From contig PADF01000048.1 of assembly GCA_002702945.1 (NCBI GenBank), positions 7,790-13,916 of the forward strand: 6,127 nucleotides of DNA, given 5' to 3'. This DNA is from Methanobacteriota archaeon (GTDB taxonomy: Archaea; Thermoplasmatota; Poseidoniia; Poseidoniales; Poseidoniaceae). The position numbers and the translations under genes were made by a program. Positions 806-6,127 of this stretch are shown one piece after another; the first letter of the stretch is position 1; each line of letters opens with the position of its first letter. The notes below the pieces were generated by a model. The model had not been told where the DNA came from. It did no database searches and saw only the letters and a list, made by a program, of their open reading frames with translations.

Positions 806-1624
806 TTATTCTTGCTCGATAATGTTGTCAACATTTTCTTCGGCGAGTTTAAGCTTTAACTCATTATTCCTCTCTTTAGCCCTAGATGCAAAATATAATC
901 CGAACGAGGGAATTAAGACCATTGAAAAGCACCCTACTACAGCGGCTAAGGCCCATAGGAATTCTGTTGCAGCATCTATTGAAAATACTTCAATGGATGA
1001 AAAATCTTCGTTGACAGTAGTTAGGAAGATCGTTGGTGAAGTCTGTCTTTCGCCTTTCTCAATGATCTCAATCTTAATTACAGATGGAGAATGCTCGTAC
1101 TCAATGACCTTCTCAGCCTTTTCTGTAGCATCATCTAATGTTTTAGCGTATACAGTGCCATTATTTCTACGCCCAGGGTCTGTTGTAGTCATAGAATATA
1201 TGCTCACATCAGAACCGTCTTCACTAATTGCTTCATGTGTAGAATTCTTGTAGCATGAATCTTCACAACTAAACTTATCTGCATCCGCTACGCCTAGTAA
1301 TCTATTGCTATACAGGCCAGCGCTATTGATTAATTTAATAATCGAATCATCTGATAATTCAGTGGCTGTTAGATTGACCCAAGTCAAATTAACTCCATTC
1401 GCAGGCACATCCCAGTACCAAGTAGTAGTATTAGTTTCTTCATTGTAGATTGAACTTGTCTGTTCGACATCATGATTTGTGGTTACCGCATCAGTTTGGT
1501 ACAAATAATATGAGGGTGAAACTGTAGCTCCATAAACGGCATACGCAAGGATGAAAATGAGAGTAAATGAAAGCCCCAAAAGTGTCCTAATTAGGTTAGG
1601 GTTTTGGGCCAAAGCCTTCTGCAT
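806..1624 (-). CDS. Uncharacterised membrane protein, two transmembrane segments with a large outer domain
   Basis: I do not recognise this 272-residue family. Residues 12-33 form one hydrophobic helix (LIRTLLGLSFTLIFILAYAVYG) and residues 220-247 a second. After the second come a basic stretch (SRAKERNNELKLK) and a short acidic helix, so both ends are probably cytoplasmic. The roughly 185-residue loop between them would be outside the cell. It holds five N-glycosylation sequons (N65, N79, N84, N127, N155) and a C120/C124 pair that could form a disulfide, which fits an extracytoplasmic domain. A surface sensor, an assembly factor or a structural protein would all fit. ATG 1624 is the natural start because it puts a short polar segment before the first helix, although no Shine-Dalgarno site is visible. 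It is divergent from the ribosomal operon and 38 bp upstream of the secreted-protein gene on the same strand. The two could be co-transcribed, but the downstream gene seems to have its own promoter element. Confidence 0.8.
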   Translation of the reverse strand: MQKALAQNPNLIRTLLGLSFTLIFILAYAVYGATVSPSYYLYQTDAVTTNHDVEQTSSIYNEETNTTTWYWDVPANGVNLTWVNLTATELSDDSIIKLINSAGLYSNRLLGVADADKFSCEDSCYKNSTHEAISEDGSDVSIYSMTTTDPGRRNNGTVYAKTLDDATEKAEKVIEYEHSPSVIKIEIIEKGERQTSPTIFLTTVNEDFSSIEVFSIDAATEFLWALAAVVGCFSMVLIPSFGLYFASRAKERNNELKLKLAEENVDNIIEQE

Positions 1625-3289: not shown

Positions 3290-3499
3290 GTGTCAGTGCG
3301 CGTAGATTGGAATCGTCATCCAGTTAGTGTACATTCCGATGATAAGGAAGAGTTAGAGCGATTAGTTAATTTCTTGAAATTAAAGTATTCCATTAGAAAA
3401 AGATCACTAGTTATGGAAGATAGAGAAGAAGGCGGTTTCCTTTTTTTCCTATACCAACCATGTGACCCTAGATGGGTCGCCGAATTCATGAATTTATGA
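3290..3499 (+). CDS. Small conserved-looking protein of unknown function in the ribosomal operon
   Basis: I do not recognise this 69-residue protein. It begins at GTG 3290 (MSVRVDWNRHPVSV), and GTGAGGG (3277-3283) lies 6 nt upstream as a good Shine-Dalgarno site. It ends 9 nt before trmJ. The sequence suggests a strand (residues 2-14), a charged helix (DDKEELERLVNFLKLK, 17-32), two strands (38-43 and 49-55), then a short C-terminal helix starting at PRWVAEF. That alpha/beta order would fit a small RNA- or protein-binding fold. It has no signal peptide or membrane segment and is probably cytosolic. Its place between rps17e and trmJ, with tight spacing on both sides, argues that it is a real, co-expressed gene and hints at a role near the ribosome or tRNA. 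No catalytic motif is visible. Confidence 0.8.
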   Translation: MSVRVDWNRHPVSVHSDDKEELERLVNFLKLKYSIRKRSLVMEDREEGGFLFFLYQPCDPRWVAEFMNL

Positions 3500-4351: not shown

Positions 4352-4804
4352 TTAATCAGACCTGCGGCATATGGCGCTATTTGCACCATGCTCTCTAACT
4401 GTAACACTTTCAACCCAACACCGGTCTTCATATATTTTCTCAATCAATTCTCTTGCGTATTCCATAGCCATTTTGGCAAACATTTCGCAGCCTGTCCCAT
4501 CTACGGGCACCATATCAATGGTTTGATTCTCATGCATTGTTTCAAATGCCGAAAACATAGGATCATCAATTGCCACTAAGGTCTTGTGGTCAAATTTTGT
4601 TCTAAGCCAAGATTCCAAATCTTTCAAGTTACCAAAATCTACAACCCAATTATTTTCATCTAATTCTTTTGCACCGAATACAAATTCGAACTCAAAGGAA
4701 TAGCCATGCATGAATTTACAATGACTATCAGCGCGCCATTGTCTAAATGCCGCAGAAAAACCTCTTTCATGACCATACTTCTTAGCAGAGAAAAAACTAC
4801 TCAT
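4352..4804 (-). CDS. queD: QueD-like 6-carboxytetrahydropterin synthase (variant PTPS family)
   Basis: A 150-residue member of the 6-pyruvoyl-tetrahydropterin synthase/QueD family. QueD converts dihydroneopterin triphosphate to 6-carboxytetrahydropterin, the first committed step to preQ0. Family marks: GFSAAF (15-20), C29 at the catalytic cysteine position in CKFMHGYSF, NNWVVDFGNLKDLESWL (51-67), FDHKTL with the D72-H73 pair, a CEMFA helix, and the C-terminal REHGANSA with E138. The usual zinc ligands are altered: the first His (FxAAH) is F20, and HGH has become HGY (H33 kept, Y35 changed). H28, next to C29, might substitute as a ligand. From memory, alphaproteobacterial QueD-annotated proteins share the FRQWRADSHC and HGANSA wording, so this looks like a defined subfamily, possibly acquired from bacteria. 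The start overlaps the msrB stop (ATGA) and follows a very strong GAGGAGGT site (4811-4818) by 6 nt. Exact reaction is inferred. Confidence 0.88.
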   Translation of the reverse strand: MSSFFSAKKYGHERGFSAAFRQWRADSHCKFMHGYSFEFEFVFGAKELDENNWVVDFGNLKDLESWLRTKFDHKTLVAIDDPMFSAFETMHENQTIDMVPVDGTGCEMFAKMAMEYARELIEKIYEDRCWVESVTVREHGANSAICRRSD

Positions 4805-5952
4805 TCTTCAACCTCCTCAAATATCAAAGATGCAGAATTTATGCAGTATCTTTCACCGCCATAAGCAGCAGGGCCATCTTTGAATACATGCCCTAAATGG
4901 GCGTCACATTTTGAACATCTAACTTCTGTCCTTATCATACCCATGCTATAATCCTCAATTCTAGTTATACCTGCCGAATCTAGTTCAGTGTGGAAAGCCG
5001 GCCAACCACAACCAGAATCATATTTACCGCTAGAACTGAACAACTCATGTTCGCAACAAATACACTTGTAGACGCCGTTTCTCTTTTCTGAATTATACAT
5101 TCCTGTAAACGGCCTTTCAGTGCCGGATTGTCTAGTAACCATGTATTGTAATTCAGTTAATTTTTCTTTATAGTATTCATCTTTGTGCATTCTTTCAACC
5201 TCTATTGCATTTTGTAAAACAGTATCCCAATCATCAACATATTCAACCGGATCTTTTCTTTCAATTGCGTTGAAAGCCAATATCCTCTCAATATCAGCTC
5301 CGCTTTTACCTGAACTTCTGCCTTTTTCATCGGGATTGTATGATGTATTAGTATTGGAAAAAATCAAATCAAAATCTAATTTTAATTCTTCACATGATTT
5401 GATTGCATCTCTAAGTATTGATTCTTTATCACCATCTATATATGGCAATTCTAGTTTTACAAGTTCACTATCCCAATTACCGATACTAAATGCATGCTCT
5501 AATGACTTATAGAACTCAGGACGACAATCAGGATAAATAGCATGATCGCCAGAATGTACTCCTAGTGCAATTATGACATTTTTATTAGATTTTGAGGCAA
5601 TTGAGAGGGCATAACCATACATGATTGATGTAAAAATAGCATTTCTATTGGGGACAACGGTAGATTTCATTTGTTCTTCTTCATAATGCCCCTCTGGTAT
5701 ATCTTTGCCGCCACTGATTAGAGAACTGTTGAAAATCATCATTGCACTCTCTAAATTAACAATTTTTTGTTCTATTGGCAAATTCATACTCTGCAAATAT
5801 TCAATATTTGATTTTGAGCGGTCAATTTCTACCCTGTGCTTCTGTCCGTATTCATAAGATATGCAGCTAACTGAATATCCTTCTCTAAGTAATCTAAGTA
5901 ATAGTGAGGTAGAATCCATACCTCCACTTAATGCCATAACTGCTTTTTTCAT
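4801..5952 (-). CDS. queC: Fusion of 7-cyano-7-deazaguanine synthase (QueC) and methionine sulfoxide reductase B
   Basis: This 383-residue protein joins two complete enzymes. Residues 1-254 are QueC, which makes preQ0 from 7-carboxy-7-deazaguanine with ATP and ammonia. Motifs are the ATP-binding loop SGGMDS (9-14), YGQKHRVE (35-42), VPNRNAIF (100-107) and GVHSGDHAIYPDCRPEF (131-147). The usual four-cysteine zinc site is absent: CGxCxxC reads SGKSGAD (214-220) and the upstream Cys is S204. Residues 255-383 are MsrB, which reduces methionine-R-sulfoxide in proteins. It has zinc pairs C297/C300 and C346/C349, resolving C315 in SGCGWP, HLGHVF (352-357) and catalytic C370 in RYCINSASL, all intact. 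M255 matches a normal MsrB start and has its own Shine-Dalgarno site. The start ATG overlaps the queE stop by one base (TAATG), with GGGTG 7 nt upstream, and the stop overlaps the queD start. Domain identities are firm; the fusion itself could be one indel away from two genes. Confidence 0.93.
   Translation of the reverse strand: MKKAVMALSGGMDSTSLLLRLLREGYSVSCISYEYGQKHRVEIDRSKSNIEYLQSMNLPIEQKIVNLESAMMIFNSSLISGGKDIPEGHYEEEQMKSTVVPNRNAIFTSIMYGYALSIASKSNKNVIIALGVHSGDHAIYPDCRPEFYKSLEHAFSIGNWDSELVKLELPYIDGDKESILRDAIKSCEELKLDFDLIFSNTNTSYNPDEKGRSSGKSGADIERILAFNAIERKDPVEYVDDWDTVLQNAIEVERMHKDEYYKEKLTELQYMVTRQSGTERPFTGMYNSEKRNGVYKCICCEHELFSSSGKYDSGCGWPAFHTELDSAGITRIEDYSMGMIRTEVRCSKCDAHLGHVFKDGPAAYGGERYCINSASLIFEEVEE
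4811..4818 (-). promoter_or_regulatory. Strong Shine-Dalgarno site of the queD-like gene
   Basis: GAGGAGGT on the minus strand, 6 nt before ATG 4804-4802, is the strongest ribosome binding site in the window. It lies within the last codons of msrB, where it encodes Glu-Glu-Val. It fixes the queD start and shows translation is coupled through the ATGA overlap. Confidence 0.75.
5188..5203 (-). promoter_or_regulatory. Internal Shine-Dalgarno site and ATG at the QueC-MsrB junction
   Basis: On the minus strand AGAGGT (5203-5198) lies 7 nt before ATG 5190-5188, the codon for M255. The layout nearly copies the queD start downstream: GAGGTTGAAAGAATG here against GAGGTTGAAGAATGA there. Initiation here would give a free 129-residue MsrB, the usual length for the enzyme. 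In both places the site also encodes Glu-Val-Glu at the end of the preceding protein. The sequence match is seen; use as a start is inferred. Confidence 0.5.
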
Positions 5953-6127
5953 TAATCAACACCCATCCATTTATGTGTTTGCAGAGATAGTCTCCACCCA
6001 TGATTTGATTTTACTACATCTTCAACCATTGCAAAATTTAATCCATTTTGCTCTACACTATCTGAATCAATGTAACACGGTTGGATATAATGGTGTGTGA
6101 ATCCTAGTTTCAAATCATCATACATGG
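5952..6127 (-). CDS. queE: 7-carboxy-7-deazaguanine synthase (QueE), C-terminal part
   Basis: Only the last 57 residues are inside the window; the gene continues past the right edge. The visible part ends WRLSLQTHKWMGVD, and the (F/W)RLSLQTHK signature is the conserved C-terminus of QueE. Upstream HHYIQPCYID matches the QPxD/E region near the end of the same family. QueE is a radical-SAM enzyme that contracts the ring of 6-carboxytetrahydropterin to 7-carboxy-7-deazaguanine. Its radical-SAM cluster cysteines and any upstream promoter or riboswitch lie outside the window. The stop codon TAA shares its final A with the ATG of the queC::msrB gene, so the two are translationally coupled. Identity is supported by motif and by position ahead of queC and queD. 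Confidence 0.9.
   Translation of the reverse strand, partial: MYDDLKLGFTHHYIQPCYIDSDSVEQNGLNFAMVEDVVKSNHGWRLSLQTHKWMGVD

Follow-up and report, generated by a model that had tools for sequence, protein, structure and literature searches.

Why does an archaeal gene join an enzyme of 7-deazaguanine synthesis to one that reduces oxidised methionine? The window analysed here, a stretch of 6,127 nucleotides from a Poseidoniales genome, contains a single frame that matches preQ0 synthase (QueC) in its first part and methionine sulfoxide reductase B (MsrB) in its second part. An earlier sequence-only reading of this DNA had described the fusion as not known and as complete in its motifs, and had named redox protection, thiol-based coupling and co-expression as possible reasons for it.

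The fusion gene and its operon

The features considered are the following:
4801..5952, minus strand: queC-msrB fusion gene of 383 amino acids (one open frame; Pfam, NCBIfam, homolog recurrence)
5218..5952, minus strand: QueC domain, filed as a zinc-less variant, residues 1-245 (PF06508 at 3-229; Foldseek matches 2pg3 and 3bl5)
5911..5928, minus strand: SGGMDS ATP-binding loop, residues 9-14 (motif comparison)
5524..5535, minus strand: YPDC substrate motif, residues 140-143 (Cys143 corresponds to Cys*162 of AANH-MSRB by offset)
5293..5343, minus strand: former zinc loop, residues 204-220 (Ser204, Ser214, Ser217 and Asp220 replace the four Cys; Tyr205 is kept)
5161..5217, minus strand: junction, residues 246-264, within a predicted continuous helix (242-264)
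4816..5160, minus strand: MsrB (SelR) domain, residues 265-379 (PF01641; resolving CysR315, catalytic CysA370, CxxC pairs C297/C300 and C346/C349)
4352..4804, minus strand: queD (PTPS, PF01242, 71.3 bits), overlapping the fusion stop by 4 bases
5952..6125, minus strand: 3' end of queE with its last 57 codons and the stop (79% identical to the QueE of L016 over these 57 residues)

The fusion frame runs without interruption over 383 codons of the minus strand, from an ATG at 5952-5950 to a stop at 4803-4801. Pfam detects QueC (PF06508) at residues 3-229 with 143.6 bits (gathering score 22; 8e-42) and SelR/MsrB (PF01641) at residues 265-379 with 165.6 bits (4.6e-49), which confirms the earlier claim of one 383-residue QueC-MsrB frame. 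Among the NCBIfam models, MsrB (TIGR00357) scores 176.3 bits, above its cut-off of 113.05, and the QueC equivalog (TIGR00364) scores 136.3 bits, below its cut-off of 150.3.

The sequence-only reading had proposed to look for the fusion in independent genomes, and we found that it recurs across a clade. Both Pfam domains are present in all of the best 120 of 7992 homologs. At least 586 genome stretches encode a relative, from which the best 80 loci were taken for comparison. We compared 57 archaeal rows, that is 56 loci (two with bacterial titles) and the window, with L069, L070 and L073 excluded as incomplete. The two genes are fused in 30 of these rows and separate but adjacent in 16; the other 11 have no msrB at this place, among them L052, which cannot be judged as its contig ends 118 bases on. 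The apparent inserts in L026 and L069 were ruled out, their odd look coming from runs of N (753 and 384); L026, with a run of N in its locus, is counted as fused. L021 and L045, whose contigs bear the titles Phycisphaerae and Rhodobiaceae, have the archaeal operon together with archaeal neighbours and are probably mis-binned Poseidoniales contigs.

In a wider sample of the class, 240 of 292 genomes have a match, and at least 118 encode the fusion without a stop over the junction; this number is a minimum, counted on the strongest 121 rows and G232, and four of the 118 match only from residue 64–90 onward. A stop lies inside the junction frame in four genomes of the sample (G013, which is known to be adjacent, G101, G208 and G284). 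In a sample of the phylum (n=145), at least 19 genomes have the fusion, all within the 37 that are common to the class sample, and among the matches listed no single match covers both domains in the 108 others.

Both halves are under purifying selection, with dN/dS of about 0.03-0.09 in 12 distinct close pairs of relatives (at least 91% identical; identical pairs and saturated dS were excluded, and the window is in none of the pairs). Since the same frame recurs across many assemblies and both halves have such a dN/dS, an assembly error is ruled out as the source of the fusion. The QueC-MsrB fusion is real. Separate queC and msrB genes in relatives, which the earlier reading had taken as a possible sign of such an error, do exist in the 16 adjacent rows, yet the fusion stands: these rows come from other species and are thus no correction of the window gene, whose nearest relatives are fused (P0002 with 94% identity, L001 and L002). 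The nearest loci, L001 and L002, are from TMED132 and Poseidoniaceae MAGs. The fusion also explains the conflicting names of this protein in the sources, which are 'MsrB' at NCBI and '7-cyano-7-deazaguanine synthase' at JGI.

The gene order around the fusion is folE–queE–queC(–msrB)–queD. By ORF clustering, with clusters named through NCBIfam and Pfam on representatives, all four preQ0 genes were found in 52 of the 80 loci; the other 28 comprise 21 bacterial loci and seven archaeal ones that miss part of the set, owing to contig ends or ORF calling. On the window, the 3' end of queE overlaps the start of the fusion gene by one base. The Marine Group III locus L031 has the same operon, with msrB absent. 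The remaining window genes, which mark the stretch as archaeal, encode a SpoU methylase, a DNA-binding protein of family PF01984 and the ribosomal proteins S19e, L31e, S17e and L39e. Two ORFs, at 3290-3499 (plus strand) and 806-1624 (minus strand), have no Pfam match; their clusters occur near the operon in 19 and 39 loci, respectively.

The window QueD contains the motif SHCKFMHGYS and scores 44.3 bits with TIGR03367, below the cut-off of 89.25. It is 71-82% identical to the QueD of L017, L023, L033, L034 and L051, whereas the QueD at the same operon place is only about 17-22% identical to it in most relatives and about 40% in L031 and L048. This looks like an apparent in-place replacement of queD.

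A single QueC match of more than 100 bits was found in 29 of 30 genomes and two in G015. Members of the TGT family occur in 24 of 26 genomes, and both members examined exceed the TgtA (arcTGT) cut-off. An ArcS-like protein scores above 190 bits in 24 of 26 genomes, none above the curated cut-off. A search for QueF gave weak matches in nine of 26 genomes, one of them above the cut-off. These were rejected as QueF and taken as FolE, since all nine are FolE-length frames on the queC contig, about 1 kb or less upstream of queC, and since a weak QueF score is also given by the FolE of L016. Judged by these genes, the product of the operon is likely to be preQ0 for archaeosine.

A QueC half without the zinc cysteines

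The motifs SGGxDS, YxQxHxxE, PxRN and YPDC as well as Lys176 and Tyr205 are present in all 57 archaeal rows, with one X at Glu42. In E. coli QueC, the residues Y35, R99, Y131 and Y189 are given as essential in the available text of PMC13329287; matched by motif, these correspond to Y35, R103, Y140 and Y205 of the window protein.

It has been described that a ThiI-like (AANH) domain can precede MsrB (PMC6211008, as far as the accessible text goes), so that the N-terminal half might instead adenylate some other substrate. Both families have the PP-loop ATPase fold, and Foldseek does report a ThiI-type match (4kr6, 1.2e-4). However, the QueC structures match far better (2pg3 with 2.0e-9 and 3bl5 with 2.6e-9), Cap9 (8.8e-8) being weaker than these as well. 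Furthermore, the QueC motifs are kept and the gene lies within a preQ0 operon. We thus regard a ThiI-like function as highly improbable.

The claim of complete motifs holds for the MsrB half, where the Cys and CxxC positions are present, but not for QueC, which has no zinc tetracysteine motif C(x)8CxxCxxC. As this feature fails, we file the window protein as a zinc-less QueC variant and not as a canonical QueC. The replacing residues are conserved among the 57 archaeal rows: position 204 is Ser in 56 and Cys in one, position 214 is Ser in 47 and Cys in none, position 217 is Ser or Thr in 56 (one X), and position 220 is Asp in all 57. Thirty further fused loci also lack the zinc Cys, three of them being duplicates of L001, L002 and L004.

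The loss is not tied to the fusion. All 27 unfused archaeal QueCs lack at least three of the four zinc Cys, with the first Cys kept in one, and we therefore reject the fusion as cause of the zinc loss. The planctomycete QueCs (11 rows, L054-L064) are 52-57% identical to the QueC of the window and lack the same Cys, the first being present in one row and the other three in none. In contrast, all four are present in the six gammaproteobacterial rows and in L067 and L072; they are absent in L066 and L071. That the MsrB domain, which has its own zinc site, structurally stands in for the lost site of QueC would agree with the missing zinc Cys of the fused QueCs. It does not agree with the unfused archaeal (27 of 27) and planctomycete QueCs (11 of 11) in which no more than one of the four Cys is left: since unfused zinc-less QueCs exist, MsrB is not needed for them, and we give such a replacement hardly any credence.

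The zinc-less archaea and the Planctomycetes fall together in the QueC tree with moderate support. No neighbours that cluster with the archaeal FolE, QueE or QueD were found in the 11 planctomycete stretches. The zinc-less state of the planctomycete QueCs suggests a transfer between archaea and bacteria in one direction or the other. Zinc is called required for QueC function in the available part of PMC13329287; with this hallmark site absent from a whole natural group, its necessity becomes directly testable. A more far-reaching idea is that Marine Group II/III and Planctomycetes share a zinc-independent, oxidation-tolerant QueC branch, in which the conserved Ser, Ser/Thr and Asp set would have taken the place of the structural zinc site; in Poseidoniales this QueC would later have been joined to a two-cysteine MsrB, with the redox state of MsrB tuning or protecting the output of preQ0. 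We consider this combination quite unlikely; if true, zinc-less QueC and MsrB together would link tRNA modification to oxidative stress.

The MsrB half, the junction and the history of the fusion

The window MsrB has the catalytic Cys, the resolving Cys, both CxxC pairs and the conserved His and Asn. CysA, CysR and the four CxxC cysteines occur in all 47 operon MsrB rows (16 of fusion type I, 12 of type II, two of type III and 17 adjacent, two of which are the same gene). The stand-alone MsrBs of the genomes of L031 (Marine Group III) and L048, which are L117 and L118, miss the resolving Cys.

No MsrB besides the operon one was found in 20 of the 22 genomes with a fused or adjacent msrB, all being MAGs whose completeness is not stated. 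Exactly one MsrB, the fused one, was found in 13 of 15 fused genomes, and the adjacent msrB is the only one in all seven genomes of the adjacent type. The two exceptions are G014, where a run of N interrupts one MsrB copy, and G015. In the latter MAG, queC-msrB occurs twice on separate contigs, once fused and once adjacent (L027 and L046/L124), which may mean a mixed bin or a real duplicate. Among the four genomes with QueC alone, two have no MsrB and two have one MsrB elsewhere. MsrA was found in 20 of 26 genomes. The Poseidoniales MAGs G016 and G019 gave no MsrB match, and G016 gave no MsrA match either; the missing Msr may reflect incompleteness. As the operon MsrB is the only one in 20 of 22 genomes, we read it as what would be the general MsrB of the cell, made as a tail of QueC.

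The junction exists in several types. In type I fusions, including the window, the helix leads into the usual MsrB start (…HKDEYYKEKLTELQY-VTR…). The spacing between a conserved Trp and the GTE of MsrB is 34 residues in all 16 type I rows and 20 residues in all 14 rows of types II and III (the spacing of L007 was read by eye, as the pattern had caught an earlier STE). This difference of 14 residues in the linker speaks against a fixed geometry. Where the genes are adjacent, they overlap or nearly touch and lie in different frames in 15 of 16 loci; in L025 they lie in one frame, with a stop and one codon between them. This stop could be a sequence error, X being present in both ORFs (9 and 3).

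AlphaFold2, run with 64 sequences, predicts the window protein with pLDDT 92.0 and pTM 0.84 and places one helix (242-264) across the junction; Foldseek matches its second half to MsrB (6.2e-16). Such a helix-spanning model leaves room for a functional interface between the domains. It could be that preQ0 synthesis is redox-gated, with the disulfide state of MsrB regulating QueC and archaeosine synthesis following oxidative stress. The predicted helix that joins both domains would fit, as would the conservation of CysR in 47 of 47 operon rows next to two archaeal stand-alone MsrBs that lack it. However, the linker changes by 14 residues, unfused neighbours are common, and no residue is peculiar to fused QueC among the Met and Cys columns compared. 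We thus judge redox gating to be very unlikely.

Alternatively, the fused MsrB might reduce oxidised Met of QueC or of other operon enzymes and so keep them working. There is a precedent for protection from oxidation in the same pathway for QueF (PMC5372742, in its accessible part), the fusion is widely kept among genomes, and every one of the 57 archaeal rows has Met12 (in the ATP loop) and Met95. However, all six gammaproteobacterial rows carry both residues as well, although MsrB is absent at that place. Met6 occurs in 90% of fused, 75% of adjacent and 73% of msrB-less rows and is somewhat more frequent upon fusion, but Met71 is rarer (70%, compared to 94% and 91%). Overall, despite Met6, no Met enrichment was detected in fused QueC: the Met content is 2.13% in fused forms, 2.42% in adjacent forms and 2.23% in forms without msrB. 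Moreover, the linker length varies, most of the genomes checked have no MsrB besides this domain, and msrB does not follow queC in 10 of the 57 archaeal rows. A tethered repair of this kind is unlikely, and the redox protection of QueC suggested by the earlier reading is not supported by these numbers.

The trees differ on the history of the fusion. In the tree of neighbour genes (six concatenated genes, 57 rows, L009 dropped), the fused forms are scattered with eight changes between fused and not fused, and an AU test rejects a single fused clade (p 2.6e-45); the concatenation presumes one history for the neighbour genes, which recombination would break. A single fusion with simple inheritance is rejected on these grounds. 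The QueC tree requires 10 changes of the fused label, two of them being enforced by strong branches. For the four labels of the MsrB tree (fused, adjacent, archaeal stand-alone and bacterial stand-alone), three changes suffice, which is the minimum; there, type II clusters with type III (96*), and the adjacent forms make up one set (88). As the three trees disagree, we give no number of fusions. To reconcile them, the queC–msrB segment must have recombined between lineages, fused repeatedly, or both. The Poseidoniales loci offer a natural series that may lead from adjacent to fused genes.

We consider it probable that Poseidoniales (Marine Group II) make from the fusion gene a housekeeping protein with two functions, the two sites of which most likely act independently. 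Its N-terminal half would be the QueC of the cell, converting 7-carboxy-7-deazaguanine to preQ0 for archaeosine in tRNA, and its C-terminal half a complete two-cysteine MsrB that would reduce methionine-R-sulfoxide. The TIGR00364 score below the cut-off and the missing zinc site count against this reading of the QueC half. Where msrB, which precedes queD in the preQ0 operon, overlaps or nearly touches queC, the loss of a stop or a change of frame could have given one chain. In a genome that is small and tightly packed, such a chain would let both enzymes be translated together and in equal amounts, and among the three reasons proposed earlier, co-expression fits best. Given that the fusion is kept in many species, there could be selection for more than co-expression; a coupling of the two halves is possible but unsupported.

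Comparison with known systems

A review from 2018 (PMC6211008, available in part; UniProt A0A2D6JNB0) presents AANH–MSRB, a fusion which, in its words, 'appears unique to archaea' and whose substrate is named only as X. Like the window protein, it combines an archaeal N-terminal PP-loop domain with a C-terminal MsrB, and its Cys*162, CysR334 and CysA389 equal Cys143, CysR315 and CysA370 of the window plus 19 each. Because the three cysteines share this constant offset, A0A2D6JNB0 seems to have the same architecture. Whereas the accessible text describes a ThiI-like AANH domain, the window domain is QueC in a preQ0 operon; the substrate X of AANH–MSRB is thus most likely that of QueC. The fusion had been called not known, and it is true that no title or abstract start in the open-licence literature searched names QueC–MsrB and that neither 'msrb' nor 'selr' occurs in the available text of PMC13329287 on QueC. 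However, a protein with matching Cys spacing was already in print in PMC6211008. New here are the identification as QueC, the operon, the loss of the zinc site and the pattern of fused, adjacent and absent msrB.

Compared to canonical QueC (cluster 1 of PF06508 in the accessible part of PMC13329287), the window protein shares SGGxDS, YxQxHxxE, PxRN, YPDC, the Lys and the Tyr of the zinc loop, and differs in the absence of C(x)8CxxCxxC and in being fused to MsrB. Its matched QueC part is about 30 residues longer than that of the gammaproteobacterial rows (244 compared to 215).

The MsrB half resembles two-cysteine zinc-type MsrBs such as E. coli 6sym (54% identity by Foldseek) and the C-terminal domain of PilB in its CysA, CysR and two CxxC pairs; unlike these, it is the C-terminal half of a QueC protein. 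The partners in other MsrB fusions act in the Msr cycle or, if ThyX-like, may pass on electrons, as the review suggests in its available text. Unlike such partners, QueC has no evident redox role.

In the GAT-QueC of archaeosine synthesis, the fusion partner is an amidotransferase domain. The protein described here is likewise a fused QueC in the archaeal deazaguanine pathway, with MsrB as its partner.
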